Positions 2 through 21,798 of a stretch of DNA of 22,923 nt are shown piece by piece. The position numbers were made by a program, and so were the translations under genes. Under the pieces are notes generated by a model that worked only from the letters and a program-made list of their open reading frames with translations, did not search any database and was not told where the DNA came from. Each line of letters starts with the position of its first letter. Within the stretch, counting starts at the first letter, position 1. Source of the stretch: a virus; IMG/VR virus record IMGVR_UViG_3300035665_000254, positions 1-22,923 of that record; one strand, written 5' to 3'.

Positions 2-55
2 TGTCCTGTAGACTTAGTAAAGACCCCTCAACCAAAAGGCCCACCAAATGAGTAA
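2..55 (+). CDS. Possible 3' end of an upstream gene (partial)
   Basis: Two frames are open from the left edge. One ends at a TAA at 53-55 and reads CPVDLVKTPQPKGPPNE at its end. The other ends at a TGA at 49-51 that overlaps the next gene's ATG as ATGA. The first looks more protein-like, but 17 codons cannot decide. A gene ending here would be closely coupled to the membrane protein starting at 48. No function can be given. Confidence 0.3.
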   Translation, partial: CPVDLVKTPQPKGPPNE

Positions 56-458
56 AGAACGCTTATCACCACAAGACCTAGACGCTAGATTAAAGTTTAT
101 TTTAGGAATCACACTAGGAACAATTCTTCTATGCACATCATTAGGCATTCTTTACGGCCTCCTATTTGTGACACAGCCAATAGGTGCTCAGTCTGAGAAC
201 GACAAGATGTTCTTTAACGTTCTAGGAAGCGTAGCAACGTTTATCACAGGTACCCTGGCTGGTCTTCTTATTGGTCAGAGCGGTGCCAAAGATGTCATGA
301 AAGCAGTTCAAGACAATAAAGAAATTGATGCCAAGAATACAAGAGAAGACAAGAAATTAGAAGCAGAGATTGATGCTACAGCAGCACGTCTAGCAGCAAA
401 GCCAGATGGCGCAATGCCAGAGGAACAGCCTGTTGATACAGATTGGGACAAAGACTAA
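48..458 (+). CDS. Two-helix membrane protein next to the endolysin, holin candidate
   Basis: A 136-aa protein with two hydrophobic segments, about residues 16-41 and 55-76, and a short polar loop between them. The C-terminal tail of about 60 residues is strongly charged and probably helical, rich in Lys, Glu, Asp and Ala, and ends in an acidic stretch. This plan (two helices, cytoplasmic charged tail, directly before a lysin) fits class II-type holins, and the overlap of its stop with the endolysin ATG (TAATG at 456-460) suggests coupled translation. The tail is longer than in many small holins, so a structural or regulatory membrane protein is also possible. The hydrophobic segments and the coupling are visible; the holin role is inference. 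Confidence 0.6.
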   Translation: MSKERLSPQDLDARLKFILGITLGTILLCTSLGILYGLLFVTQPIGAQSENDKMFFNVLGSVATFITGTLAGLLIGQSGAKDVMKAVQDNKEIDAKNTREDKKLEAEIDATAARLAAKPDGAMPEEQPVDTDWDKD

Positions 459-1009
459 TGGCAGACCAAGGAACAGCAGCACGCCTTATTGAAGTTGCTA
501 AAGCAGAAATTGGCGTTATCGAAGGACCAAAAGATAATGAGACTAAGTACGGTGCTTATACTAAAGCCAACTTCCAACCATGGTGTGGTTCTTTTGTTAT
601 GTGGTGTGGCAACGAGGCTGGAGTAAAGATTCCTAACACTGTATACACACCAAGTGGAGCAGCGGCATTTAAGAAGGCTGGTGCATGGATTGACGGAGAT
701 GTTGCAGACCCAGAACCAGGAGATATAGCCTATTTTGATTTCCCATCAGATGGCGTCGATAGGATTTCTCACGTAGGTATTGTTATTAAAGACAATGAAG
801 ATGGCACTGTTTGGTGTATCGAAGGCAACACATCTTCTAAGAAGTCTGGAAGTCAAAGAAATGGTGGAGAGGTCTGCAAACAACTTCGGGCCTATAAGAA
901 GAACAAGGCTAACGTAATGATTTCAATTGTTGGTTTTGGTCGTCCAAAGTTTAAAAAGACAGCAGAAAAAACTGAATCTTCTACCAAGTGTCCTACTTGC
1001 GGTAAGTAA
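458..1009 (+). CDS. CHAP-domain endolysin (peptidoglycan amidase/endopeptidase)
   Basis: A 183-aa lysin with a CHAP (NlpC/P60-like cysteine peptidase) fold across nearly its whole length. The candidate nucleophile is Cys43 in PWCGSFVMWC. The candidate catalytic His is His105 in ISHVGIV. The third polar position is probably near Glu122/Asn124 in CIEGNTS. Such enzymes cut peptide or amide bonds in peptidoglycan at the end of infection. No separate wall-binding domain is seen. A basic linker leads to a final CPTCGK motif that could hold a metal or make disulfides. The ATG at 458 overlaps the upstream stop. A TTG at 443 would add five residues and is less likely. There is no signal peptide, so a holin is probably needed. 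Confidence 0.88.
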   Translation: MADQGTAARLIEVAKAEIGVIEGPKDNETKYGAYTKANFQPWCGSFVMWCGNEAGVKIPNTVYTPSGAAAFKKAGAWIDGDVADPEPGDIAYFDFPSDGVDRISHVGIVIKDNEDGTVWCIEGNTSSKKSGSQRNGGEVCKQLRAYKKNKANVMISIVGFGRPKFKKTAEKTESSTKCPTCGK

Positions 1010-2008: not shown

Positions 2009-2052
2009 TTTAAGTCTTGAGGGGTACAAGATAAAAGATTCCGAGGGGTTTC

Positions 2053-4722
2053 TTGAAATTGCTGCGTGCATCCGCAGAACAATATGGTTTCTTTAGTCGT
2101 TTAAACTTTTTACTAGGAGCAGGATTTATTTATCTGCTTCTTTCGATTCTTCCTGCTTATGCAGAGGAAACAACTTCTGCACCACCTGCGCCACAAGAAA
2201 CAACAGCGCCAACCCCAGAGCCCACACAAAGTCCAACGTCATCTACTTCTTCTCCTGAACCTTCTCCAACGCCAACAGCCGAACCTTCACCGAGCGAAGC
2301 ATCACCTTCACCAACACAAAGTCCAGAGCCAAGCCCAACCCCAACCCCAACAGAAACCACAGCGCCTGAGACATCTCCTACTCCTTCCACATCCACTTCG
2401 ACTGAGCCCGCTCCAAGTCCAACTCCAACGCCAGAATCTTCGCCTGCTTCCACTTCAACTCCGACTCCAACTCCTGAACCTTCTCCAACTCCAACCGCGA
2501 CCTCGACTCCAGCGCCAACACCCGCTCCATCTTCTGAGCCGAGTCCAACTCAATCACCGACTCCAGAGCCTTCACCTTCCGCTTCAGTGGCTCCGACGCC
2601 CATATCCAGCCCAGAACAATCCCCGTCCCCAAGCAATACAACACAAACGCCGACTGCCACCACACCTGAAACACCTACAGTCACCTCCGTACAAGCAAAA
2701 ATTGAGACGGCAACTGTAACGCTAAATGCTGCAATTGAATCGTCAACTGTCACACAACAAGCGGCTGCTGCTACTCAAATAACTGAGGCTCAAACTGCTA
2801 TCACTGTGGCAGAGAGCGCCACGGTCACTGCTGTTGCTGCGCAGGCTACTGTTAATGCTCTTTTAGATGCGCCAGAAAACACAAAAGTGTACACAACTGA
2901 TGGTTATGTGGCTCCCGTTGCTCCGCAAACACCCACAGTTACAACAACAACTTTGCCTGTGATGTACGACGCATCAACTAAAATTCAAACTCCTTTTGAT
3001 ATAAAAATGGGTGATGTGGTATACAACGGTCAGGGTGCAGATAGCCAAATTTATGTAACTTCAAAGGCAACTATTACCTTTGGCACTGGAAACCATATCT
3101 GGTGGGATTTCCCTGCTGGACCAAGCATTTCAGTATTTGCCAGCGACTATATGAATGCTGGTCAAGGCACATCTACTGTAGTAACTACCACAGATACAAC
3201 TTTAGAAGTTGATTGGAACCTTAAAAAGTTTGGTGACAACAACAGCCCTATAACTAACATTAATTGGAAAATGACTGTCAACCCTACAACTGGGGAATGG
3301 ACTGGTATAGGAACTGTTGCTGGCAATACTACTAATCTTTGGTATCCGCAACGCACTGGTGTTAGAGAAACTGCAGGCGAGCCTATAAAACCAATGACAA
3401 ATGTAACTAATGAGACCATTGCTGCGGCTCAAGAAACAGCGGCAACAAAACTTGCTACCGCAAATGCTTTAGCAAATACTGCAGTAGAAAAAGTAGAAAC
3501 CGCTGTTACAGTTCTTCAAACTCCGATTCCTCAAACTCCGCCGACTCCAACACCTGAGCCAACTCCCGCACCGCAGCCAGAGCCAACACCACAACCACAG
3601 CCAGAGACGCAACCACAGCCAACACCACAACCCGAACCTTCACCTGAACCTCCTACAAATCCGTCAACCGACCCTGCGCCAACCAATCCAACTCCTGAGC
3701 CCACGGTTCCAGGACCTCAACCTGAGCCTCAACCTCAACCAGAGCCTGTTGTACCGCAACCCGAACCAGAGCCTGAGCCTCCTGTGACGGAAGAGGATGA
3801 CCCTGAAGAACCTGAAGTTGCTCCAGAGAATCCTGAAGAGTCTTCTGAAGAGGAAACAGAAAGTCAGGAAGAGGCTCCAGAGGATTCTCCTGAAGATGAC
3901 ACTCCCGAAGACACTCAAGACGATTCAGAGAGTCCTCAAGACACTCCTGAATCTTCCGATAATCAACAGCCAGACTCATCAGAAGACCCTACAGACTCAG
4001 AAACAGAACCGACCCCAACAGAAGAAGAGACACAGCCCATATCGCCTGAAGAAGGCGACGAAACTGACGAGTCTTCTGTCGAACCCCAACCTGAAGAATC
4101 AGAAGAGCCAGAAACAGACAACCAAGAGCAATATAATCAGTCGGAAGAAACACAAGATACTCCTATCGTTGAACCAAGTAACCCAGAGCCTACACCAGAA
4201 ACAGTTATCTCCGACGCACTTTCTGACGGTCAATTAACAACCGAAGAAAAAGAAGTCATAGTTACTGCTTTGGTCGCTAGTCTAGCACCAGGTGAGGCTA
4301 TCTCTAGCGAAACTTTAATAGAGGCTGGAATTACTTATGAAGACTTACCTCCACAAACACCTGTTGACGTTAGAACCGATGAGAACGGTAATGCAGTTAT
4401 TATTACTGCAGAAGTTGCAGCCGCCCTTGAACTAATCGAAAATCCATCTGAATTAATTGGCGAATTATTTACTGACCCAGGTCAAGTTCTTCTTGCACTG
4501 GGAAGTATCGGTGCAGATATGTCAGAAGAAGAACGAGAAGAAGCAACAAAGATGGTCGTAGCAACTGTAGTCGCTGCAGGTGCTGCTATTAATGCTGCAA
4601 CAACCGCAGCAGCCGCAGCAGCCGCTGCTGCAACAACAACGGGAGGGTCAACTGGAGGCAGTAGTTCAGGTGGCGGAGCGCCAACTGGAGATAGCAAGGC
4701 AGTTAGGAGACGCCGCAAATGA
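2053..4722 (+). CDS. Very large secreted/surface protein with Pro-Thr-Ser and acidic Pro-Glu linkers (889 aa)
   Basis: Starts with TTG at 2053 behind a GAGGGG ribosome site (2043-2048). Residues 1-37 form a signal peptide: basic start, hydrophobic core FLLGAGFIYLLLSIL, cleavage expected after AYA37. Then follow: a Pro/Thr/Ser linker (39-212); an Ala/Thr helical segment (213-272); a beta-rich globular region with Trp/Gly clusters (about 285-440; GNHIWWDFPAGPSIS); a second Ala/Thr helix (450-488); a Pro-Gln-Glu linker becoming highly acidic (489-717); a C-terminal helical domain (718-840); a poly-Ala stretch; a Gly/Ser segment; and a final KAVRRRRK. Linkers of this type span cell walls. The Ala-rich segment plus basic tail could act as a membrane anchor, but no LPxTG motif is present. 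I recognise no named family. It lies between the endolysin and small membrane genes and overlaps the next ORF by four bases. Roles in lysis, surface masking or superinfection exclusion are inference. Confidence 0.85.
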   Translation: MKLLRASAEQYGFFSRLNFLLGAGFIYLLLSILPAYAEETTSAPPAPQETTAPTPEPTQSPTSSTSSPEPSPTPTAEPSPSEASPSPTQSPEPSPTPTPTETTAPETSPTPSTSTSTEPAPSPTPTPESSPASTSTPTPTPEPSPTPTATSTPAPTPAPSSEPSPTQSPTPEPSPSASVAPTPISSPEQSPSPSNTTQTPTATTPETPTVTSVQAKIETATVTLNAAIESSTVTQQAAAATQITEAQTAITVAESATVTAVAAQATVNALLDAPENTKVYTTDGYVAPVAPQTPTVTTTTLPVMYDASTKIQTPFDIKMGDVVYNGQGADSQIYVTSKATITFGTGNHIWWDFPAGPSISVFASDYMNAGQGTSTVVTTTDTTLEVDWNLKKFGDNNSPITNINWKMTVNPTTGEWTGIGTVAGNTTNLWYPQRTGVRETAGEPIKPMTNVTNETIAAAQETAATKLATANALANTAVEKVETAVTVLQTPIPQTPPTPTPEPTPAPQPEPTPQPQPETQPQPTPQPEPSPEPPTNPSTDPAPTNPTPEPTVPGPQPEPQPQPEPVVPQPEPEPEPPVTEEDDPEEPEVAPENPEESSEEETESQEEAPEDSPEDDTPEDTQDDSESPQDTPESSDNQQPDSSEDPTDSETEPTPTEEETQPISPEEGDETDESSVEPQPEESEEPETDNQEQYNQSEETQDTPIVEPSNPEPTPETVISDALSDGQLTTEEKEVIVTALVASLAPGEAISSETLIEAGITYEDLPPQTPVDVRTDENGNAVIITAEVAAALELIENPSELIGELFTDPGQVLLALGSIGADMSEEEREEATKMVVATVVAAGAAINAATTAAAAAAAAATTTGGSTGGSSSGGGAPTGDSKAVRRRRK

Positions 4723-4886
4723 TAAAGTTCCTTAAAGATATGCTAGACCAACTTTGGACACTTTTGGGTATGTTTATTGCTTGGATTGTGCTCGATGGAA
4801 GTGCAAAAGACGTGGTTGGTTGGGCAACAATCGGAACTCTCGTTGCATGGATTGCAACGTATCCCCTGCGCAACCGCGAAGATTAA
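4719..4886 (+). CDS. Small two-helix membrane protein, holin candidate (55 aa)
   Basis: The ATG at 4719 overlaps the previous stop (ATGA) and the 55-codon frame ends with TAA at 4884-4886. Two hydrophobic segments are visible: residues about 12-26 (LWTLLGMFIAWIVL) and 33-49 (VVGWATIGTLVAWIATYPL). They are joined by a short DGSAKD turn, with a basic start (MIKFLK) and a charged end (RNRED). This hairpin-like topology and size fit small phage holins or antiholins. The near absence of a loop resembles pinholin-like hairpins, but the family is not recognised. Translation is probably coupled to the 889-aa protein. Holin function is inference from topology and neighbours. Confidence 0.7.
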   Translation: MIKFLKDMLDQLWTLLGMFIAWIVLDGSAKDVVGWATIGTLVAWIATYPLRNRED

Positions 4887-4928: not shown

Positions 4929-5123
4929 ATGGATAAGAAAGCACTAGAAGCAGCAGCAGCCACGTACTTACGTGCCGCTGCAGCAGCAGTTGCCGCTCTG
5001 TACATGAGCGGTATCACAGACCCAAAGACTTTGCTCAATGCATTTATTGCAGGTCTTCTCGGCCCATTGGCTAAAGCACTAAATCCAAAAGACCCGTCAT
5101 ACGGGTTCGGCAAGAAGAAATAA
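4929..5123 (+). CDS. Small Ala-rich hydrophobic protein, holin-like (64 aa)
   Basis: A good ribosome site (TAGGAG near 4918-4923) precedes the ATG at 4929. Residues 8-27 form an Ala-rich helix, then GITDPKTLLNAF leads into a second hydrophobic stretch (residues 38-50, FIAGLLGPLAKAL). It ends NPKDPSYGFGKKK. Small phage proteins with the pattern Ala-rich helix, then DPKxL, then NPxDxxFG are often annotated as holins in actinophages and aquatic phages; that assignment comes from the pattern, not a search. It sits between two other membrane proteins, so either it is the holin or it works with them. Confidence 0.68.
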   Translation: MDKKALEAAAATYLRAAAAAVAALYMSGITDPKTLLNAFIAGLLGPLAKALNPKDPSYGFGKKK

Positions 5124-7003: not shown

Positions 7004-7223
7004 GTTCGCAGTACAAGGACATGCTGTACCATCATCCTCACACAGTCCAAGAGGACCGTTTCCACCTGAAGTCCTAGCAGGACCTCAGAGAAGTTACGGC
7101 GATGACCATTCGGATTCCTTACATCCAGCACTAGACGAAGTACGCTTCTTCAAATGTCGCGACTGCGAAGAGGTGCTTTTTGAGACTGAACTAGACAACC
7201 ACACATGTGAGGAAGAAGAATAA
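6987..7223 (+). CDS. Small C-terminal zinc-finger protein
   Basis: 78 aa. Residues 1-50 are polar and Pro/Ser/His rich. Residues 54-74 carry FKCRDCEEVLFETELDNHTC, giving ligands Cys57, Cys60, His72 and Cys74, a CxxC...HxC finger. It ends in an acidic EEEE. The start lies within the preceding gene (17-base overlap) and the stop overlaps the next ATG (TAATG). It is the third plus-strand cysteine-knuckle protein in the window. No named family was recognised. Confidence 0.62.
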   Translation: MKVIRKFAVQGHAVPSSSHSPRGPFPPEVLAGPQRSYGDDHSDSLHPALDEVRFFKCRDCEEVLFETELDNHTCEEEE

Positions 7224-7867
7224 TGGCCGTAAATAACAATGGGAATCTACTTGATTCCGCAGGAAACGTATGCGTCGACAGAGTTTGGGGCAATATGCCT
7301 ATGCAGCCAAACGATGAGCGCGACGAAGCAGTTCAAGGAGACTTGAGCGCAACTCTTAATGACCATGTCATTGCTTATGCAGGATGGAATGGTTATCCAC
7401 TTTATACACCAAACGATGATGGAGCAGGCGTTGGATATGTAAACGTCCCATCTGTTATTGGTGTAGTTACAGCAACCGCTGTAGATACTCTTGATGATGC
7501 TGGTCTTACAGTTACTACAGCATCTGCTGCAACTAACTCTGCAAAGACAATTACAGCAGTATCTCGTACAACTGGTTCAACAACTATCCGTTTTACTGCA
7601 TCAACACACGGATATTCACTTAACCAGAAAGTAACTGTTTCTGGTCTTGACTCCGAGTTCAATGCTACTTGGACGATTGTTAACGTTCCAAACGGAAACG
7701 CGTTTGACGTTACAGGAACTTCAACAGCATCTTATGGTGCATCAGGACTTTCTGGTTCTGTAGTTGCAGTATCTGGAACAATCAAGACACAGTCTGTTGC
7801 TGCTGGTGGAGCAACGATTGCAGTAGGACAAGCAGTAACTATTACACCTTGGGCCACAGCCTCTTAA
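7223..7867 (+). CDS. PASTA-like protein with an inserted beta domain, putative virion protein
   Basis: 214 aa. The N-terminus (residues 1-65: VDRVWGNMPMQPNDERDE ... IAYAGWNGYPLYTPND) is a pattern I associate with phage structural proteins. Residues 74-102 (NVPSVIGVVTATAVDTL, then AGLTV) match the first half of a PASTA domain. Residues 186-208 (TIKTQSVAAGGATIAVGQAV) match its second half. Between them, residues about 103-185 are a self-contained beta-rich insert (STTIRFTASTHGYSLNQKV ... TWTIVNVPNGNAF). PASTA domains bind peptidoglycan or muropeptides in host kinases and penicillin-binding proteins. Here the domain may help a virion part touch the cell wall, which is inference. TAATG links it to the gene before. 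Confidence 0.65.
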   Translation: MAVNNNGNLLDSAGNVCVDRVWGNMPMQPNDERDEAVQGDLSATLNDHVIAYAGWNGYPLYTPNDDGAGVGYVNVPSVIGVVTATAVDTLDDAGLTVTTASAATNSAKTITAVSRTTGSTTIRFTASTHGYSLNQKVTVSGLDSEFNATWTIVNVPNGNAFDVTGTSTASYGASGLSGSVVAVSGTIKTQSVAAGGATIAVGQAVTITPWATAS

Positions 7868-9259: not shown

Positions 9260-10843
9260 GTGCATATGGAAGAAGATAAGTTTGAAGAAATAAATCCTGA
9301 ATTCTATCTTCAGGATGAACAACCTGTTGAAGAAGATGTAGAGGAACCTCTTGATGAGTTATCCCAACAGTTTGTAGACAAACTCATTGACAAGATGCTT
9401 GAGTTTCTTAAAGTACTTGTTGGGCATGACCTGCACCCTTATCAAAAGCCTCTTGCTCGTCGCATTATGGAATCAGTTATCATTAATGATGGCGAAGAAA
9501 TAACAGCGTTAGCATCGCGTCAGTCAGGTAAGTCAGAGACGGTTGCAGACACGGTGGCTACTATGATGATTCTTCTTCCACGCCTTGCAAAGTTGTATCC
9601 AGACCTTCTTGGAAAATTTAAAGATGGAATTTGGGTTGGATTGTTTGCACCAACCGAAGCACAGGCTGAGACTCTCTTTGGTCGCACTGTTACTCGTTTA
9701 AGTTCAGAGCGTGCTGTTGAAATCATGGATGACCCAGAAATTGACGACACAGCCGCACGCGTAGGCGGGGTAACACGTCAGATTCGTTTAAAGAAATCTG
9801 GTTCTACTATCACAATGATGACCGCTAACCCAAGAGCAAAGATTGAGTCTAAGTCATTCCATCTTGTAATCATTGATGAGTGTCAAGAAGCAGATGACTT
9901 TGTTGTGTCGAAGTCCATCTCTCCTATGTTGGCTTACTATGCAGGAACAATGGTTAAAACGGGAACGCCAACAACAAGTAAGAATAACTTCTATCGTGCT
10001 ATACAGTTAAACCGTAGACGACAAACAGGACGCGCTGCAAGGCAAAACCACTTTCAATGGGATTGGAAAGACGTTGCTAAATTCAACCCAAATTATGAAA
10101 AGTTTATTCGTAAAGAAATGCTGCGTATTGGGGAAGACTCTGATGAATTTCAAATGTCATATAATTGCAAATGGTTGCTAGAACGAGGAATGTTTGTTAC
10201 GTCATCTATAATGGACGAACTAGGTGACACTTCACAAGAGTTAGTTAAGTCTTGGCACAAGACTCCTGTTGTTGTTGGAGTTGACCCTGCACGTAAGACT
10301 GACTCAACAGTTGTTACGATTGTGTGGGTTGATTGGGATAGACCTGATGAGTTCGGATACTTTGACCATCGCATTCTCAATTGGTTAGAGATGCAGGGAG
10401 ATGATTGGGAAGAGCAGTACTATCAAATAGTTAACTTCCTTGAGAACTACGACGTACTTGCTGTTGGTGTTGATGCTAACGGTGTAGGTGATGCAGTCGC
10501 ACAACGACTTAAGTTACTCTTACCAAGAGCAGAGGTTATGTCCTTGACATCTAGCCCATCAGAACAGTCGAAGCGTTGGAAACACCTACAAGCACTACTC
10601 CAACGCAAAATGATTTCTTGGCCTGCCCATGCTAAAACTAGGCGCCTAAGAACATGGAAACGGTTCTATCAACAGATGGTTGACGCAGAGGTTCAGTACA
10701 AAGGTCCTAACTTCCTTGTAGCCGCTCCTGATGAGTCTTACGCACACGATGACTTTGTAGACTCCCTTGCTATAGCCTGTTCCTTAACTCAGGACCTCGT
10801 TATGCCAGAAGTTGTGGCTTCAAGTAATCCTTTCTTTGGTTAG
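9260..10843 (+). CDS. terL: Terminase large subunit (packaging ATPase/nuclease)
   Basis: 527 aa. TerL pumps phage DNA into the prohead through the portal and cuts the concatemer. ATPase domain: Walker A-like SRQSGKS at residues 86-92, an adenine-site region near HPYQKPLARRIM (59-70), Walker B VIIDE at 203-207 with catalytic Glu207, and a coupling motif TGTPTTS (234-240). RNase H-like nuclease domain from about 336: acidic residues Asp342 (VVGVDPARKTDS), Asp405 (AVGVDANGVGD) and Asp498/Asp501 (HDDFVDSLA). All key residues are present and the length is normal. The start is GTG at 9260 or ATG at 9266, neither with a strong ribosome site. An acidic N-terminal extension of about 35 residues precedes the core. 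No small terminase was recognised nearby. Confidence 0.95.
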   Translation: MHMEEDKFEEINPEFYLQDEQPVEEDVEEPLDELSQQFVDKLIDKMLEFLKVLVGHDLHPYQKPLARRIMESVIINDGEEITALASRQSGKSETVADTVATMMILLPRLAKLYPDLLGKFKDGIWVGLFAPTEAQAETLFGRTVTRLSSERAVEIMDDPEIDDTAARVGGVTRQIRLKKSGSTITMMTANPRAKIESKSFHLVIIDECQEADDFVVSKSISPMLAYYAGTMVKTGTPTTSKNNFYRAIQLNRRRQTGRAARQNHFQWDWKDVAKFNPNYEKFIRKEMLRIGEDSDEFQMSYNCKWLLERGMFVTSSIMDELGDTSQELVKSWHKTPVVVGVDPARKTDSTVVTIVWVDWDRPDEFGYFDHRILNWLEMQGDDWEEQYYQIVNFLENYDVLAVGVDANGVGDAVAQRLKLLLPRAEVMSLTSSPSEQSKRWKHLQALLQRKMISWPAHAKTRRLRTWKRFYQQMVDAEVQYKGPNFLVAAPDESYAHDDFVDSLAIACSLTQDLVMPEVVASSNPFFG

Positions 10844-11378: not shown

Positions 11379-11636
11379 GTGAGAAAACCCGCTAATCCAA
11401 AACTGTATGCAATGTTTGTTGCACAGGCAAAGGCTAAGTATTCAACATGGCCTAATCCTGGTGCAAGTGCATGGGTTGCTAAAAAGTATCAACAAGCAGG
11501 CGGTCAATACGTAGAAACAACTGAAGCAGACCGTCGTAAAAAAATGGCAATAAAGAAACAACAGCATGAACAAGAAAAGAAACGTTCTGTAAAAAAAGAT
11601 AATAAAAAATCCGAAAAGGATAAAGGCAAGAAGTAA
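11379..11636 (+). CDS. Small lysine-rich protein before the portal
   Basis: 85 aa from GTG at 11379, selected because GGAGGAG (11367-11373) is ideally placed; the open frame upstream lies in the hairpin. Residues 5-41 look folded (NPKLYAMFVAQAKAKY, then TWPNPGASAWVAKKY and GGQYVE). The pattern resembles small phage proteins with a KYxxWPxxxASxWVxKxYxxxGGxY core. Residues 50-85 are a Lys/Glu/Gln coiled tail ending KDKGKK. No function is known. It is coupled to the portal gene by TAATG at 11634-11638. Confidence 0.65.
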   Translation: MRKPANPKLYAMFVAQAKAKYSTWPNPGASAWVAKKYQQAGGQYVETTEADRRKKMAIKKQQHEQEKKRSVKKDNKKSEKDKGKK

Positions 11637-13372
11637 TGTCATTTCTAGATTTCACGCCACCGTCTTATAGAGCGGCGTCATCTGACCTTACGATTTCTAT
11701 TTCACCTCTTGGTCTTGTAGAACTTGCTGACGAAGAATTTGAGGTTCACGGTCCTCGTCTAAACCGTTATTCGCTCAACTGGGCAATGTACTTAGGGCAT
11801 CACTGGGGTTATCGTCGTGAACAAGGCGAAATGCAAATTGCCGTTAATTACTATCGCGCTTTCAATGATTATCTTGCAAGGTTTGTCTTTGGTCGTGGAG
11901 TTCATTTTCGTTCTCCTAAATCGACTGAAGCAATTATTCCAGACCGCTTAGAGCGCATTTGGGAAATTGACAATGACAAGATGCGTGTTCTACTTGAGAT
12001 GGGACAGCAGGGCGGTATTACTGGCGATGTTTTTGTAAAAGTAGCATACGAAGAGCCATGGACAGACTCTGCTGGCATGTTCCATCCTGGACGTGTTCGC
12101 ATTCTTCCTATGAACTCATCTTTCTGCTTCCCTGAATTTCATCCACACGACAGAACACGCCTACTTCGCTTTAAGCAGAAGTATCGTTTCTGGGGAACTT
12201 CTCTTGAAGGTACTCGCCAAGTATTTACTTACACTGAAATTTTGACTGACGATGTTATTGAAGAGTACATCAACGATGAACTCATTGATTCACGCCCAAA
12301 TCCACTAGGACTTATTCCAGTGGTACATATTCCTAACGTTCCTGTTTCAGGTTCACCGTGGGGTCTCTCGGACGCACACGACATCATCACTATCAACCGT
12401 GCATATAACGAAATTAGCACTGATGTTGCAGACATCATTAACTATCACGCTTCTCCTGTGACAGTTATCGTTGGTGCTAAAGCCTCTAACCTTGAGAAAG
12501 GTGCTAAGAAGGTTTGGGGCGGTCTTCCAAAAGACGCCCAAGTCTTCAATCTTGAAGGTGGCGCATCAGGTATTGATGGCGCTTTGAAATATCTTGAGTT
12601 ATTAAAACGCTCAATGCACGAAATCATGAACATTCCAGAAACTGCGCTTGGACAAGTCCAGCCAATTTCTAATACATCAGGTGTTGCTCTTTCTATTCAG
12701 TATCAGCCACTGATGAATCGCTACTCTCAAAAGGTAGCCCAGTATGGCAAGGGACTAGAGCGAATCAATGAACTTGCACTTCGCACCCTTGCTATCAAGG
12801 AACCACAAACATTTTTATATAATCCAAATGAAGATGGGCCAATCAAGGAAGGTCAACTAGACCGTCTTGACCCAAATGACCCACTTTCATATATGAACTA
12901 TGTACAGTTCCCACCTCCATTACCATTAGACAAACTAATTGTGCTTAACGAAATTCAGACCAAACTTGGTATGGGTCTTGAGTCTAAAGAGGGGGCACTT
13001 CGTACTCTTGGTGAAGAATTCCCAGAAGAGAAGTTACAAGAGATTCGTCGTGAACTTGTTGAAGATGCTAAGGCAGACGGAGCCCTCACTCTTGTCCGCG
13101 TTCAGATTCAAAAGCAGATTCAAGACATGACAGGTATGATGCCAGGACCTGATGGAACAAGCGCAGTTCCGCTCCAACCTACTGAACTAGGTGATGGAGA
13201 TATCATGGGAGATGGCGTAGAAGGCGCTCCTTCACCTGAGAATATCGAAAACCCAGTCAATCAAGAGGCTGAGGCTATTAATTCACAGGCAGAAGCCGCT
13301 ATCCGTGAAACGCTACTAACCCAAGCCTATGGAACAAAGATTCCACAGAGAAGGGCAGTAGATAGAGAATAA
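11636..13372 (+). CDS. Portal protein (SPP1 gp6-like)
   Basis: 578 aa. It forms the dodecameric ring at one head vertex through which TerL packages DNA and to which the neck attaches. Features seen: an N-terminal segment with NRYSLNWAMYLGHHWGYRRE, then NYYRAFNDYLARFVFGRGV. A central region GDVFVKVAYEEPW with LGLIPVVHIPNVPVSGSPWG follows. Then comes the typical long portal helix section AYNEISTDVADIINYHASPV, and the IPETALGQVQPISNTSGVAL stretch found in gp6-type portals at the tunnel region. The C-terminal 100 residues are acidic and Gln/Glu rich. The size fits the family (about 450-600 aa). It lies after terL and before scaffold and capsid, the usual order. The start overlaps the preceding stop. 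Confidence 0.9.
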   Translation: MSFLDFTPPSYRAASSDLTISISPLGLVELADEEFEVHGPRLNRYSLNWAMYLGHHWGYRREQGEMQIAVNYYRAFNDYLARFVFGRGVHFRSPKSTEAIIPDRLERIWEIDNDKMRVLLEMGQQGGITGDVFVKVAYEEPWTDSAGMFHPGRVRILPMNSSFCFPEFHPHDRTRLLRFKQKYRFWGTSLEGTRQVFTYTEILTDDVIEEYINDELIDSRPNPLGLIPVVHIPNVPVSGSPWGLSDAHDIITINRAYNEISTDVADIINYHASPVTVIVGAKASNLEKGAKKVWGGLPKDAQVFNLEGGASGIDGALKYLELLKRSMHEIMNIPETALGQVQPISNTSGVALSIQYQPLMNRYSQKVAQYGKGLERINELALRTLAIKEPQTFLYNPNEDGPIKEGQLDRLDPNDPLSYMNYVQFPPPLPLDKLIVLNEIQTKLGMGLESKEGALRTLGEEFPEEKLQEIRRELVEDAKADGALTLVRVQIQKQIQDMTGMMPGPDGTSAVPLQPTELGDGDIMGDGVEGAPSPENIENPVNQEAEAINSQAEAAIRETLLTQAYGTKIPQRRAVDRE

Positions 13373-14291: not shown

Positions 14292-15419
14292 ATGGCAAGT
14301 GCAATTACAGGTACTGGTCAACTAGCCAGCGCCCCTACCGCTTATTCAGGCTCCAATACAAGCCTTAATCAAGCAATTCAAACAATCTGGTCGAAGGAAA
14401 TCCTCTTCCAGGCAATGCCAATTCTTCGTTTTGAACAGTTTGCAGTTAAGAAGACTGAACTAGGAGTTGCTCCTGGTCTTCGTGTGAACTTCCTTCGTTA
14501 CAAGAACTTTGCAGTAGACCCATCTCCTCTAACAGAAGGTGTTCGTATGACAACGAACGCTCTTACTGCAGAGCAGATTGCTATTACTGTTGCAGAACAC
14601 GGCTACGCAGTAGCAGTTTCTGAACTTCTTCTAAATGCATCCTTCGATGACGTGATGGCTTCTGCTTCACGTCTTCTTGGTCGCCACATGGCACAGTACC
14701 TAGATGTACAGGCACGTAACACACTTTCTGCAGCAACTTCTGCAGTATTTGGTTATGACCGTTCTGCACTTCAGGGTGTTAATGACTGGTACAACGAAGG
14801 AAGCGCTGCAACACAGTTCTCAGACCTCGATGGTAACTACAAGTTATCTACAGGTGCTGTCAAGGATGCTGCTCTTACCCTTGCTGGTAAGAACATCCCA
14901 CGCCTTGGTGAGACATACGTACAGTTCGTACATCCAAAGCAGTCACGTGATATCCGTTCGAACCCAGAGTTCATCGAGGTAACAAAGTACGCTGCTCCAG
15001 GAAACTTCATGCTCGGTGAAATCGGACGTCTCTATGACGTAGTATTCATCGAAACAACACAGGTTAAGAAGTTGGCTGTTAACGCTTCTTATACAACTTC
15101 AACAAGCGTAGGAGTTCCTGCGTCTCAGATTGAAGTACCTGTTAAGGCTAACACTCGCCCAGGTTCAGGCGGTAACCCAGAGTCTGCAGATTTCACTGCT
15201 GAAAAGGGTTATTTGACTTCTGCAACTGGAAACGGTGCTGAGGTTTACGAGTCCATCATGATTGGTGACAATGCATTTGGTCACGCAATCTCCCTCCCAG
15301 TTGAACTCCGCGATGGTGGCGTTCTCGACTTCGGTCGTGAGCACGCTCTTGCTTGGTATGCAATTTGGGGTCTTGGTGTTATCACAGACCAGGCTATCGT
15401 CAAGGTCTACACCAACTAG
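14292..15419 (+). CDS. Major capsid protein (N4-gp56 family, HK97 fold)
   Basis: 375 aa, forming the icosahedral shell. The N-terminus is Ser/Thr/Ala-rich, then IQTIWSKEILFQAMPILRFEQFA, the opening typical of N4-gp56 family capsid proteins. Next come LRVNFLRYKNF, LTEGVRMTTNALTAEQIAI and HGYAVAVSELLL, then LLGRHMAQYLDVQARNTL (spine-helix region). YVQFVHPKQSRDIRSNPEF and PGNFMLGEIGRLYDVVFIET make the P/A-domain core. The C-terminus, LAWYAIWGLGVITDQAIVKV, is characteristic of the family. AAAGGA about ten bases before ATG 14292 is a good ribosome site. It is followed by a 16-bp hairpin. The family assignment is by motif reading. Confidence 0.9.
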   Translation: MASAITGTGQLASAPTAYSGSNTSLNQAIQTIWSKEILFQAMPILRFEQFAVKKTELGVAPGLRVNFLRYKNFAVDPSPLTEGVRMTTNALTAEQIAITVAEHGYAVAVSELLLNASFDDVMASASRLLGRHMAQYLDVQARNTLSAATSAVFGYDRSALQGVNDWYNEGSAATQFSDLDGNYKLSTGAVKDAALTLAGKNIPRLGETYVQFVHPKQSRDIRSNPEFIEVTKYAAPGNFMLGEIGRLYDVVFIETTQVKKLAVNASYTTSTSVGVPASQIEVPVKANTRPGSGGNPESADFTAEKGYLTSATGNGAEVYESIMIGDNAFGHAISLPVELRDGGVLDFGREHALAWYAIWGLGVITDQAIVKVYTN

Positions 15420-17402: not shown

Positions 17403-20222
17403 GTGGCACGTAAATATTTAACCCCAATTGATTTAACTAAGTTAGAACTTCAGAATGCCCGCATTCAGAACCTAGCAACAGCCCCAGGAAGCCCAGTAGT
17501 AGGTCAAATCTATTTTGACACTGTACTTGGTTATCTTCGTGTTTGGAATGGCAGTGCATGGGTTAATACAAGCCAAGGTGCTCAAGGTACGCAAGGCACT
17601 CAAGGTACAACTGGTGCTCAAGGTACACAAGGAACACAGGGAACCGCAGGTGCGCAAGGTCTTGACGGTGCTAATGGTTCGCAAGGTACACAAGGAACAC
17701 AAGGTACACAAGGTACTGTTGGTGCGCAAGGAACTCAAGGAACACAGGGCACCGAAGGTGCGCAAGGCGCAGAAGGTGCACAAGGTACAACTGGTGAGAC
17801 TGGTGCTCAAGGTACGCAAGGAACACAAGGTGTTGAGGGACAACAGGGTGTACAGGGAACTCAAGGCACGCAAGGCGTTCAAGGTACTGAAGGACAGCAA
17901 GGAGTTCAAGGAACTGTTGGTTCTCAAGGCACACAAGGAACTGTTGGTTCTCAAGGCACACAAGGAACTGTTGGTTCTCAAGGCACCACAGGAGCGCAAG
18001 GTGCGGAAGGTGCACAAGGAACGGCTGGTGCGCAAGGTACAGAAGGCGCCCAAGGAACACAGGGAACACAAGGTACTCAAGGTGTTCAAGGTAAAGAAGG
18101 TTCCTTTGGTGGTATTTCATTTGAGTATAACTATGACAACTCAACCACTATGGCAGACCCAGGCGATACATACATTCGCCTTAATGCTTCTCCTTCTTCA
18201 GCAACAGCACTTGCAATTGATGACGTAAACGCTGCTTCAGTAGACATTCATCCATATCTACAAACAATTGATGACTCTACTTCAACAATTAAGGGTCACG
18301 TAAAGATTTCTCTAAAGTCAGATAGCAACACGTTTGCTCTCTACACAATTAGCAACCTAACAGATAATGCAACATGGTTTCAAATAACAATTGCATATGT
18401 ATCTGGTAATGGTTCATTCACAGATGAAGATGATGTAATTTTAACTTTTGCTCGTACTGGTGATGTTGGTGCACAGGGTGCTCAAGGTACAACGGGTGCT
18501 CAAGGCGTACAGGGCACTACAGGTGCTCAGGGAGCAGAAGGTGCTCAAGGTACAGAGGGCGCTCAAGGTACAGAAGGTGCACAGGGAGTTCAAGGTACTG
18601 AAGGACAACAGGGTACTCAAGGAACTTTAGGTGCTCAGGGTACTCAAGGTACCGAAGGAGCCCAAGGCGTCGAAGGACAACAGGGCGTTCAGGGCGTTCA
18701 GGGAACTCAGGGCGTTCAAGGTACTCAAGGTGCAGACGGTATTCAAGGTCTAGACGGTGCTAACGGTACCCAAGGTACAGTCGGTGCACAGGGTACAGTC
18801 GGTTCACAAGGAACAACTGGAGCCCAAGGTACTCAAGGTACAGCAGCACTTTGGAACTTTACTGGTGCTTATAACATCGGATTACCATATGCAGTTGGCG
18901 ATGTAGCAACTTACCAAGGACAGACTTGGTACCGCAAAAATGCTAATGGCGGTAACGTTGGAGATACTCCTTCAGAAGGAACCTTCTGGACATTGCTTTC
19001 TGCGCAAGGCGTTCAAGGCACTGTAGGTTCACAGGGCACTGCGGGAACTCAGGGTACTCAAGGTACACAGGGTGCTACTGGTACAACTGACCCAATCACT
19101 GCTGGCTATGCATTAACTAAGGTCGGAGACCAGGTCTCATTTGATGCCTTCGTCGCAAGTACTGGAGCAGGATTCGAAGGCGCTCAGTACACAACAACAC
19201 TAAAGGCAATTGCTCCAACTGACAACAACGTAATTAACTTGCCAGATGCAGCAGGTACTATCGCTCTTACCAGCGATATCACAGCGACAATTGCTGATAC
19301 TGATGATGTTCCAGAAGGTACTACAAACCTCTACTACACTGATGAGCGTGTAGATGACCGTGTTAACGACCTTATCGTTGATGGTACTGGTATTCAAACC
19401 ACCTACAACGATGGCGCTCAAACACTAACTATCGCTGTTGACACGACAGTCATCGCAACTCGTGCATACGTAGACTCAACAGCACAAGGTCTTGATGTCA
19501 AGGCTTCTGTTAAAGTTGCAACGACAGCAGCATTAGCAACCTACGCCTTCTCTAACACAGGTGGCGGAACTCTTACGGCAAGTGCTAATGGCGCCCTAAC
19601 AATTGATGGTGTAAATCTTGCGCAAGGTAACCGTGTTCTTGTAAAGAATGAAGCAGGTGCTAACGAGAAGTACAACGGTGTCTACTCCGTAGCAACTGCT
19701 GGTGATGGAAGCACTCCATGGGAGTTGATGCGTGCAGACGATGCAAATGCTTCTGCAGATGTCACAGCAGGCCTCTTCACATTCGTTGAGCAAGGCACAA
19801 CAAATGCTGATACTGGCTGGGTATTAACAACTAATGACAGCATCACCCTTAACACTACAGCGCTAACCTTCACACAGTTCTCTGGTGCAGGAACATACAT
19901 CGCTGGTGGCGGTCTAACTCTTACTGGTAACACATTTGCAGTGGGCGCTGGAACAGGTATCACCGTAAACGCTGATGATGTTGCAGTAGACACAACCACA
20001 GTTGCTAGAAAGTACACAACCACAGTTGGTGACAACAGCGCAACATCCTTTACAATCACACACAACTTCAATACACGTGGAGTCGTTGTTTCGGTTTACA
20101 ACGCAGCCTCCGCTTATGAAGAGGTAGTTGTAGATGTTGAAAAGACAACCGTCAACACCGTTACTGTGAAGTTTGCTGAAGCCCCAGCAACTAATGCTTA
20201 CGTCGTGGCGGTCATTGGCTAA
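17403..20222 (+). CDS. Large collagen-like tail fibre (939 aa)
   Basis: Starts with GTG at 17403 behind AAGGAG. Order of parts: an attachment-like N-terminus (1-58: LTPIDLTKLELQNARIQNLA, GQIYFDTVLGYLRVWNGSAW); collagen-like Gly-X-Y (59-231), Y almost always Gln and X Thr/Ala/Val/Glu; a beta domain (232-352); a second collagen-like part (353-480); a Trp-rich module (482-533: WNFTGAYN, GDVATYQGQTWYRKN, W) like chitin/carbohydrate-binding modules of the CBM5/12 type; a third short collagen part (534-560); then fibre domains including NLYYTDERVDDRVNDLI, RAYVDSTAQGLDVKASVKVA and TIDGVNLAQGNRVLVKNE. The end is an HNF-type tip (885-939). There is almost no proline in the repeats, so helix stability must come from other residues. 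It probably binds the host surface as a trimer. Confidence 0.87.
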   Translation: MARKYLTPIDLTKLELQNARIQNLATAPGSPVVGQIYFDTVLGYLRVWNGSAWVNTSQGAQGTQGTQGTTGAQGTQGTQGTAGAQGLDGANGSQGTQGTQGTQGTVGAQGTQGTQGTEGAQGAEGAQGTTGETGAQGTQGTQGVEGQQGVQGTQGTQGVQGTEGQQGVQGTVGSQGTQGTVGSQGTQGTVGSQGTTGAQGAEGAQGTAGAQGTEGAQGTQGTQGTQGVQGKEGSFGGISFEYNYDNSTTMADPGDTYIRLNASPSSATALAIDDVNAASVDIHPYLQTIDDSTSTIKGHVKISLKSDSNTFALYTISNLTDNATWFQITIAYVSGNGSFTDEDDVILTFARTGDVGAQGAQGTTGAQGVQGTTGAQGAEGAQGTEGAQGTEGAQGVQGTEGQQGTQGTLGAQGTQGTEGAQGVEGQQGVQGVQGTQGVQGTQGADGIQGLDGANGTQGTVGAQGTVGSQGTTGAQGTQGTAALWNFTGAYNIGLPYAVGDVATYQGQTWYRKNANGGNVGDTPSEGTFWTLLSAQGVQGTVGSQGTAGTQGTQGTQGATGTTDPITAGYALTKVGDQVSFDAFVASTGAGFEGAQYTTTLKAIAPTDNNVINLPDAAGTIALTSDITATIADTDDVPEGTTNLYYTDERVDDRVNDLIVDGTGIQTTYNDGAQTLTIAVDTTVIATRAYVDSTAQGLDVKASVKVATTAALATYAFSNTGGGTLTASANGALTIDGVNLAQGNRVLVKNEAGANEKYNGVYSVATAGDGSTPWELMRADDANASADVTAGLFTFVEQGTTNADTGWVLTTNDSITLNTTALTFTQFSGAGTYIAGGGLTLTGNTFAVGAGTGITVNADDVAVDTTTVARKYTTTVGDNSATSFTITHNFNTRGVVVSVYNAASAYEEVVVDVEKTTVNTVTVKFAEAPATNAYVVAVIG
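17910..17986 (+). repeat. 27-bp perfect tandem repeat within collagen-like region
   Basis: The unit starting GGAACTGTTGGTTCTCAAGG begins at 17910, 17937 and 17964. The first two copies are identical over 27 bases and the third matches for 23. It encodes GTVGSQGTQ, three Gly triplets. Elsewhere the repeats use varied synonymous codons, so this is a recent expansion. Confidence 0.85.
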
Positions 20223-20224
20223 CG

Positions 20225-20506
20225 ATGAGCAGCAGAGCACTAGTACCACTGAACGTACTGGCTACCGTTACGGAGCCAGTAGGTCAGCATGCTGGTGACC
20301 TCTACTTTAATCCAGACAATCACAACCTCTATGTATTTGATGGAGTATTCTGGGTCGAGATATCGACAGTACCTACTTTCGACATCATAGAGGGTGGCGA
20401 CGAAGCAAGCGGAAGCGACACCTATCTGTCAACAGCAGAAGGTGGAGACGAAGCAGGTGGCAGTGATTCTTATACCAGTTCCTATGATGGTGGAGGAGTA
20501 ATCTAA
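20225..20506 (+). CDS. Small fibre-associated protein with EGGDEA repeats
   Basis: 93 aa, starting three bases after the 939-aa fibre stop. Residues 1-48 (VTEPVGQHAGDLYFNP, HNLYVFDGVFWVEI) are a short beta motif also used at phage fibre starts, like GQIYFDT...LRVWNGSAWV in the gene before. Residues 56-87 hold two 16-aa repeats (EGGDEASGSDTYLST and EGGDEAGGSDSYTSS, each followed by one residue), then a shortened third, DGGGV. The repeats are acidic and Gly/Ser rich. The TAATG overlap with the next gene indicates co-translation with the second collagen-like fibre. A linker or chaperone-like fibre partner is inference. Confidence 0.65.
   Translation: MSSRALVPLNVLATVTEPVGQHAGDLYFNPDNHNLYVFDGVFWVEISTVPTFDIIEGGDEASGSDTYLSTAEGGDEAGGSDSYTSSYDGGGVI
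20390..20485 (+). repeat. Two 48-bp repeat units (EGGDEA)
   Basis: Two in-frame 16-codon units encode EGGDEA-type repeats, with silent and a few amino-acid differences between the copies. A partial third copy (DGGG) follows at the end of the gene. Confidence 0.7.
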
Positions 20507-21798
20507 TGGCAGTAACAATCAAATTACGTCGTGGAACAGCAACGAACTGGTCAACGAATAATCCAACTTTAGCCGCTGGTGAAGTCGGCATTGAAACCGA
20601 TACTGGAAAATTAAAGATTGGTAATGGCTCTACCTCTTGGAACTCTCTTCCATATGGCGGATTACAAGGTACTCAAGGAACTCAAGGTGTTCAGGGCGTT
20701 CAAGGTACACAGGGAGTCCAAGGAGTAGGGGGTGCTCAAGGAACCACTGGAGATACTGGAGCCCAAGGTACTCAGGGAACACAAGGTACTCAAGGAACTC
20801 AAGGTACTCAGGGAACTCAGGGAACAGTTGGAGCCCAAGGTACTCAGGGAACACAAGGCGCTGAAGGTTCACAGGGTGCTGAAGGACAACAAGGTACTCA
20901 AGGAACGCAGGGTACGCAAGGCGTACAGGGAACTATTGGTTCTCAAGGTGTACAGGGTGTTCAGGGTACACAGGGTGTGCAAGGAAGCGAAGGACAACAA
21001 GGAACTCAAGGAACGACAGGCTCTCAGGGAGTTCAAGGTACCCAAGGCACTCAAGGAACCCAAGGAACCCAAGGAACTCAAGGTTCAATAGGAGCCCAAG
21101 GTGTTCAAGGTCTTGCTGGTCAAAGCGGTTCGTCATCTAGCATTTTTGAGTTTAAAGCAGACGCAAATAGCCAAGCAGACTCTGCTCCATCCAATGGACA
21201 TCTTCGTTGGAACAACGCCACTCAAAAGAATGCTTCTTTTATATATATAAGCCATCTCGACACTCTTGGTAATGACAATGATGTGATTTTTTCACTCATT
21301 AAACAAGGCGATGTAATCACTGTTCAGAAAAAAGACAATTCAGATGATTATCAAACATTTAATGTTAGTGGCGCTATAACAGTTATTTCGAACAGTTACA
21401 TAAAGATTCCAGTATCAAATACTGGTTCTGGTGGTGTTGGAGCGACTAATTTTTCTCAAAATGACACTCTGTTATTCGTTATTACAAGCGTCGGTGTTCA
21501 AGGTCCAACTGGTGCGCAAGGCGTTCAAGGAACCGTCGGTGCACAAGGAACAGTTGGTTCACAGGGTGTACAAGGAACGCAGGGAACACAGGGTGTACAA
21601 GGAACCATCGGTGCTCAAGGAGCCCAAGGAACGACAGGCTCTCAGGGAGTTCAAGGTGTTCAAGGCACAGTTGGTACTGGTACACAGGGAACTCAAGGTG
21701 TGCAAGGAACTGCAGGTACCACAGGTACTCAAGGAACAGCAGGAACTGCAGCAGCAGGCGGTTCTATCCCAGATATCCTGATGCTAGGTGGTATGTAG
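20506..21798 (+). CDS. Collagen-like tail fibre with Mtd-type N-terminus (430 aa)
   Basis: Residues 3-51 (IKLRRGTATNWSTNNPTLAA, GEVGIETDTGKLKIGNG, WNSLPYG) match the common N-terminal domain of phage fibres related to the major tropism determinant (Mtd_N-like). Then a collagen-like stretch of Gly-X-Gln (52-210), a beta domain (211-331: SIFEFKADANSQAD ... NDTLLFVITSVG) like that in the 939-aa fibre, a second collagen-like part (332-415) and a short hydrophobic end, GGSIPDILMLGGM. No C-terminal receptor-binding domain follows, so it may serve as a shaft or decoration fibre. The start overlaps the previous stop. Its last 15 bases overlap the minus-strand glycosyltransferase gene tail to tail. 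Confidence 0.85.
   Translation: MAVTIKLRRGTATNWSTNNPTLAAGEVGIETDTGKLKIGNGSTSWNSLPYGGLQGTQGTQGVQGVQGTQGVQGVGGAQGTTGDTGAQGTQGTQGTQGTQGTQGTQGTVGAQGTQGTQGAEGSQGAEGQQGTQGTQGTQGVQGTIGSQGVQGVQGTQGVQGSEGQQGTQGTTGSQGVQGTQGTQGTQGTQGTQGSIGAQGVQGLAGQSGSSSSIFEFKADANSQADSAPSNGHLRWNNATQKNASFIYISHLDTLGNDNDVIFSLIKQGDVITVQKKDNSDDYQTFNVSGAITVISNSYIKIPVSNTGSGGVGATNFSQNDTLLFVITSVGVQGPTGAQGVQGTVGAQGTVGSQGVQGTQGTQGVQGTIGAQGAQGTTGSQGVQGVQGTVGTGTQGTQGVQGTAGTTGTQGTAGTAAAGGSIPDILMLGGM

Follow-up and report, generated by a model that had tools for sequence, protein, structure and literature searches.

The 22.9-kb stretch of viral DNA analysed here (22,923 nucleotides; hereafter the window) carries, judged from sequence, a phage-specific, single-copy and obligate two-gene module, the larger product of which has an exported, modular and C-terminally anchored architecture with swapped exodomains and non-AUG starts. 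That infected actinobacterial cells display this modular protein on their surface is a reading in which we place about even confidence. We infer surface display, a complex of the protein with its small partner, and low dosage. The long exported protein probably coats the infected cell, and the function that we infer as most likely is a modification of the cell envelope directed against rival phages.

A predicted surface protein of modular layout

The surface-protein frame is intact and real: it encodes 889 residues from a TTG start behind a GAGGGG Shine-Dalgarno sequence, and its conservation across hundreds of contigs ruled out a frame artefact of repetitive sequence. An earlier, sequence-only reading of the window had proposed a signal peptide, linkers, helical segments, a beta domain and an RRRRK end, a layout that composition and sequence confirmed (Table 1). 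The layout is beyond chance: a first search of viral contigs (best 80 hits per search) retrieved it from 79 loci, and a second, the search suggested by that reading with a profile of the C-terminal domain (alignment A1), from at least 535.

Table 1. Features of the module and of the adjacent lysis genes; positions are those of the window.
Feature	Position	Strand	Basis
2-TM protein, holin candidate, outside the module; accompanies the endolysin in many genomes	48..458	+	
CHAP endolysin, outside the module	458..1009	+	Pfam CHAP E 6.7e-11; PHROG endolysin E 2.5e-26
Shine-Dalgarno-like GAGGGG, 6 nt 5' of the TTG start	2041..2046	+	sequence
Modular surface protein, Sec-exported (predicted), TTG start, 889 aa	2053..4722	+	sequence, family searches
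Signal peptide, residues 1-37, end ..LSILPAYA/EE	2053..2163	+	sequence; equivalent in 99/100 complete members
P/T/S-rich disordered linker, residues 38-210	2164..2682	+	composition
Ala/Thr-rich helical segment, residues 211-285	2683..2907	+	composition
All-beta exodomain, residues 286-450	2908..3402	+	AF2; swapped among close relatives
Second Ala/Thr helical segment, residues 451-492	3403..3528	+	composition
Acidic Pro/Glu linker (wall-spanning, predicted), residues 493-713	3529..4191	+	composition
Conserved C-terminal domain, residues ~714-833 (ADGxLTxxE .. DLPPxTPVEVR .. GADMSEEEREE)	4192..4551	+	alignments A1/A3, AF2
Ala/Val-rich TM-like helix, residues 834-861	4552..4635	+	hydropathy, AF2, composition
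Gly-rich tail with RRRRK end, presumed cytoplasmic	4636..4719	+	charge, composition
Partner, membrane protein of 55 aa with two TM segments; its gene shares 4 nt (ATGA) with the surface-protein gene	4719..4886	+	searches, hydropathy

The first linker consists of 31% P, 25% T and 21% S and lacks K, R and G; the acidic one contains 28% P and 23% E. TM and signal-peptide calls are predictions from our own hydropathy rules, and the rule-based export test, for which frames were first extended upstream, looked for a basic n-region, a hydrophobic core and an AxA-type site. By this test, 99 of the 100 complete unique members of the family have a predicted exported N-terminus, members with non-canonical starts included. 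At the other end, the C-terminal 21-residue hydrophobic stretch of members has a mean KD of 1.78, and the last 12 residues carry a net charge of at least +2 in 98% of members. In the window protein, the C-terminal helix is 57% A and only moderately hydrophobic. The motif DMxxxER was found in 136 of 137 members, and its stricter form GADMSEEER in 72 of them.

Structure prediction, another check that the sequence-only reading had proposed, gave a mean pLDDT of 94.6 for the beta domain and block values of ~82-93 for the C-terminal domain; AF2 modelled a single helix running from the SEEEREE motif through the poly-Ala region and covering residues 115-150 of the segment modelled. Pfam, PHROGs, NCBIfam and PADLOC contained no match to the window protein, and neither fold searches with the C-terminal domain nor profile searches of the PDB returned anything significant.

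Distribution and host of the family

The C-terminal domain is retained, at 42-100% identity, in every member whose 3' end is present, and the N-terminal part varies, with protein lengths from 277 to 1472 aa and differing domain content. The gene is present in exactly one copy in 30 of 30 large contigs. WhiB, an actinobacterial marker, was found in all 24 large contigs tested, which identifies the viruses as actinophages; the WhiB control search matched only Corynebacterium. The proposal that the sequence reads like a Sec-exported, wall-spanning host-surface protein, here of an actinophage, is supported. The host is likely Nanopelagicales or a related freshwater group.

Outside these viral contigs, profile A1 gave no confirmed occurrence of the C-terminal domain among the genomes of 84,980 cellular species, single-sequence tblastn detected no relative of the surface protein in 50,697 phage records, and neither the C-terminal domain nor the partner has a relative in Pfam, PHROGs or NCBIfam. 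A host gene picked up by a phage is thus unsupported, since both the C-terminal domain and the partner lack a relative in the cellular genomes. The capsid protein of the window is ~60% identical to that of LuckySocke, BRock and other Streptomyces phages of 113 kb; these phages yielded no relative of the surface protein by tblastn, the LuckySocke annotation has no counterpart upstream of the terminase, and papers on freshwater actinophages do not mention the module. The module occurs in at least three terminase lineages without cross-match (75, 24 and 17 loci), and the tree of the C-terminal domain requires at least seven changes of terminase lineage against a minimum of two, which argues that the module has been transferred between phage lineages.

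Relatives encode other secreted proteins as well. A second secreted phage family of 340-380 aa (L072:10105-11244, minus strand; L157:12021-13043; L145:3569-4588) combines a signal peptide, a beta-like body, a C-terminal coiled-coil and a Lys-rich end and resembles host surface proteins. The product of L145:11748-12860 is also secreted and contains a metallopeptidase-like HExxH motif, LAHEYTHSV, and an M23-peptidase-like gene (L157:7749-8147; GYHTGVDF..HLHFEM) lies immediately upstream of the surface-protein gene.

Non-AUG start codons

The arrangement CCGAGGGG-N5-TTG is kept in the window relatives L009, L010, L013, L075, L089, L090, L092, L028, L031, L112 and L151. Start sites across the family were inferred from sequence. 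Among the 99 members bearing a signal peptide, TTG was the commonest start (52) and ATG accounted for at most 12. No in-frame ATG, GTG or TTG precedes the signal peptide in 27 of the 99; here, a strong Shine-Dalgarno sequence stands right before ATA or ATT, or in a single member before CTG, as in L144 (AAGGAGATAAA-ATA) and L131 (AGGAGTTAAA-ATT), and this type also includes L146, L150, L100, L103, L108, L110 and L083. Twelve other gene families on the same contigs start with ATG in 322 of 351 cases, compared with 12 of 99 here (Fisher p ~1e-53, a significance overstated by the relatedness of the sequences). Gene calling limited to ATG, GTG and TTG truncates the ATA/ATT members and thereby hides the signal peptide in about a quarter of the family. 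In Streptomyces, the coupled pair sigR-rsrA has a GTC start and is repressed by IF3 (PMC5472188).

A two-TM partner follows the surface-protein gene

The partner ORF, which falls below the usual 60-aa cut-off, was absent from the sequence-only reading, as were the non-AUG starts and the swapping of exodomains. All 157 of the 157 related viral loci have the partner directly 3' of the surface-protein gene, with an offset of -4 in 106 of them; the partner and family loci compared are the best 80 hits of each search and so cover the closer relatives. A search with a profile of the partner alone (A4) found at least 596 viral relatives, none in the 84,980 cellular genomes and none in phage records. 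In 77 of the 79 new partner loci the surface-protein gene is immediately upstream, and the other two start too near the contig edge, which makes it 77 of 77 evaluable loci. Short overlaps link the translation of neighbouring genes and are overrepresented among genes for the subunits of complexes (PMC10666635), implying that partner and surface protein may form a complex.

The outward domain is exchanged

The beta domain, which had been called unique, is indeed present; it is not universal and proved to be one of several exchangeable exodomains, being found in 58 of 157 loci, the remaining loci carrying PA14 or other modules. A structural search of the PDB gave a best E of 0.13 and TM-scores below 0.25. 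Good structural matches were confined to two proteins of uncultured Caudovirales, neither annotated with a function: A0A6J5NEV5 (E 7e-10, TM-score to the query 0.81) and A0A6J5P6J9 (E 6e-10, 0.74), which are probably unannotated members of the surface-protein family. We rejected a TerB identity, as 'TerB_like domain containing protein' is only an automatic label, borne by A0A6J5NEV5.

The comparison of close relatives was informative about how this variety arises. In L013, L089 and L090, TerL is 95-98% and the partner 91-100% identical to the window, and the C-terminal domain 78-86%, whereas the exodomain reaches merely 32-33% identity. The discrepancy with TerL implies that the outward domain was swapped and the anchor kept. 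Exodomain type did not correlate with tail-fibre type in the three comparable genomes.

Such exodomains might serve adhesion or aggregation, attaching infected cells to one another or to particles or polysaccharide and altering virus dispersal or grazing. Their variety would agree with this, as would PA14, detected by motif in 25 of 100 members and scoring higher than the Pfam cut-off in L019, L027 and L072, the FN3-like segments that occur among the exodomains of the family, and the MSCRAMM-like layout. No ligand is known, however, sequence data cannot separate adhesion from receptor shielding, and tiny free-living planktonic hosts offer little occasion for adhesion; we therefore consider an adhesin unlikely.

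The module and the lysis genes

Besides the module, the window encodes a terminase (9260-10843), a portal (11636-13372), a major capsid protein (14292-15419) and collagen-like fibre ORFs (17403-21798). The likely start of the CHAP endolysin is the ATG at 458, and the first in-frame TTG is at 443.

A lysis factor was another option of the sequence-only reading. The partner would then act as a holin or antiholin resembling class II, and the surface protein, exported and anchored, would help to breach or destabilise the wall of a monoderm host in a spanin- or LysZ-like manner. A CHAP endolysin lies within 3 kb of the module in 11 of the 21 large contigs, where chance would give ~8%, and shares its strand in 20 of 21; surface-protein gene, partner and CHAP gene are consecutive in L052, and one 80-aa gene stands between in L061. 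Two-TM small proteins are typical holins, LysF1a being a two-TM example with N-in/C-in topology (PMC13056207), and the partner, with 55 aa and two hydrophobic segments, fits the holin criterion of a small protein with 1-3 TM segments. Weak start codons would also fit timed lysis. The partner belongs to no PHROG family, however, and its matches in Pfam and NCBIfam were weak, stayed below the cut-off and included no holin. Its constant associate is the surface-protein gene and not the endolysin, which lies 3-19 kb off in many genomes. In lineage B (G003, G004, G005 and G008), moreover, a cassette of lipoprotein, 2-TM gene (g48) and CHAP endolysin is found ~5-17 kb from the module, which implies that the module is separable from lysis and that a holin candidate exists elsewhere in these genomes. 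Exchangeable PA14, FN3 or beta exodomains are also without obvious use for a lysis protein. Proximity to the endolysin in about half of the large contigs thus stands, but the separate lineage-B cassette leaves the lysis factor less supported, and we judge it improbable.

Several further genes were observed. The window (4929-5123) and its homologues (L052:7084-7275, L246:2957-3199) encode a small hydrophobic protein with an NPKDPxxGxG end; the homologues often adjoin the endolysin, making it a holin candidate for which no family model was found. A small phage lipoprotein with a lipobox and the motif YRYPCQDPxNWExxECKPPxC is encoded at L238:1739-1960, L239:3241-3453 (minus strand), L240:3312-3521 (minus strand) and L243:1198-1431 and also occurs in L013, L089, L090 and L092; it adjoins the 2-TM gene and the CHAP endolysin in four lineage-B loci and is a candidate lysis or exclusion lipoprotein. 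Window positions 7223-7867 encode a protein of 214 aa that relatives also have upstream of the terminase; its PASTA-like repeats are weak and fall slightly below the Pfam cut-off (E 2e-4).

A fibre or decoration of the virion, with the hydrophobic N- and C-termini as assembly elements, is very unlikely. In its favour, the gene lies shortly before the terminase and head genes of the window, fibres commonly hold long Pro-rich rods and beta domains, and one member (L072) has a coiled segment with a weak PHROG tape-measure match (E 4e-9). Against it, the AxA-type signature persists even with non-canonical start codons, the end that is conserved and resembles an anchor is the C-terminus, which has a basic tail and a two-TM partner, and collagen-like fibres are encoded elsewhere in the window. 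The earlier variant of a new fibre exported through Sec is improbable, a conserved, membrane-anchor-like C-terminus with a variable N-terminus being the reverse of a tail fibre.

A working model of surface display

We propose that the weak non-AUG codon, combined with a strong Shine-Dalgarno sequence, throttles synthesis of the surface protein, plausibly via IF3; the codon and ribosome-binding site are seen in the sequence, and the mechanism is our suggestion. The signal peptide is predicted to direct the protein to Sec, the P/T/S-rich and acidic P/E linkers to cross the wall and push the variable exodomain (beta domain, PA14 or FN3-like) outward, and the C-terminal domain to lie at the membrane, with the Ala-rich helix inserted and the Arg-rich tail in the cytoplasm. 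As the conserved overlap suggests, the 55-aa partner would be made by termination-reinitiation at a fixed ratio to the surface protein, and it may form a complex with the C-terminal anchor and aid its insertion or organisation. In the last and least certain step, the exodomain would cover or bind receptors of the infected cell and hinder adsorption or DNA entry of rival phages.

Interference with competing phages is the function that we favour, with adhesion and lysis as its rivals, and it is the least certain part of the model. The sequence-only reading had listed a surface shield or superinfection exclusion; this is now the favoured option, as a predicted function, because exodomain exchange, single copy and lineage spread fit an arms race at the cell surface. 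A counterpoint is the position of the gene in the late region, beside terminase or endolysin in the window, given that most known exclusion genes are expressed earlier. Known superinfection-exclusion proteins, moreover, are for the most part lipoproteins or membrane proteins of small size. The moderate hydrophobicity of the C-terminal helix and the missing correlation of exodomain with tail-fibre type also count against the model. Our more far-reaching proposal, that a widespread, undescribed system of large viruses of aquatic actinobacteria lets lytic phages re-dress the infected surface against rivals by means of an obligate pair, held at a low level by systematic TTG, ATA or ATT starts, is tentative and somewhat doubtful.

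If the model is true, a module that lacks a family model, and of which isolated phages yielded no relative, would be among the commonest accessory systems of viruses of abundant freshwater bacteria. It would point to a so far undescribed phage route of host-surface remodelling, make testable how lytic phages alter the envelope of slow-growing planktonic actinobacteria, and offer a natural display anchor for monoderm cells.

Comparison with known systems

The family resembles LPXTG/MSCRAMM proteins in its signal peptide, variable outward domains, Pro-rich wall-spanning part, C-terminal helix and basic tail, as assigned by our rules. It differs from them in its coupled two-TM gene, its phage origin and a C-terminal domain not found in cellular genomes. 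A sortase substrate was rejected, as an LPxTG, LAxTG or NPQT motif is missing from the last 90 residues of all 137 members. Likewise, SEC10/PgrA surface exclusion (TIGR04320) was dismissed: matches reached 18.5-18.8 bits against a curated cut-off of 70, in L019 and L042 only, and they fall on Ala/Thr coiled segments, with none on the window protein.

With LysZ and spanins the surface protein shares export, phage origin, a membrane segment and, in half of the genomes, a position near lysis genes. LysZ, however, has 177 aa and one TMD with N-in/C-out topology (PMC13056207), and the cleavable signal-peptide signature, C-terminal helix and basic tail of the family make the inverse topology; lacking a single N-terminal TMD of N-in/C-out orientation, the protein is not assigned to LysZ or the spanins. 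In the SigR/RsrA system of Streptomyces, too, a non-canonical codon starts the leading gene of an actinobacterial pair whose translation is coupled (PMC5472188), but the proteins are unrelated and control by IF3 is a regulatory analogy only.

Ltp of the S. thermophilus phage TP-J34 is a phage-encoded superinfection-exclusion surface lipoprotein (PMC3952083). In contrast to the lipid-anchored Ltp and Llp, the family has a C-terminal hydrophobic helix, a length of 277-1472 aa, a two-TM partner and non-AUG starts, and a lipoprotein identity was rejected because a lipobox with a lipidated cysteine is missing from all 137 members. Like Ltp, which is phage-encoded, exported and located on the infected or lysogenic cell (PMC3952083), the surface protein described here is encoded by a phage and predicted to be displayed on the cell that the phage has infected.
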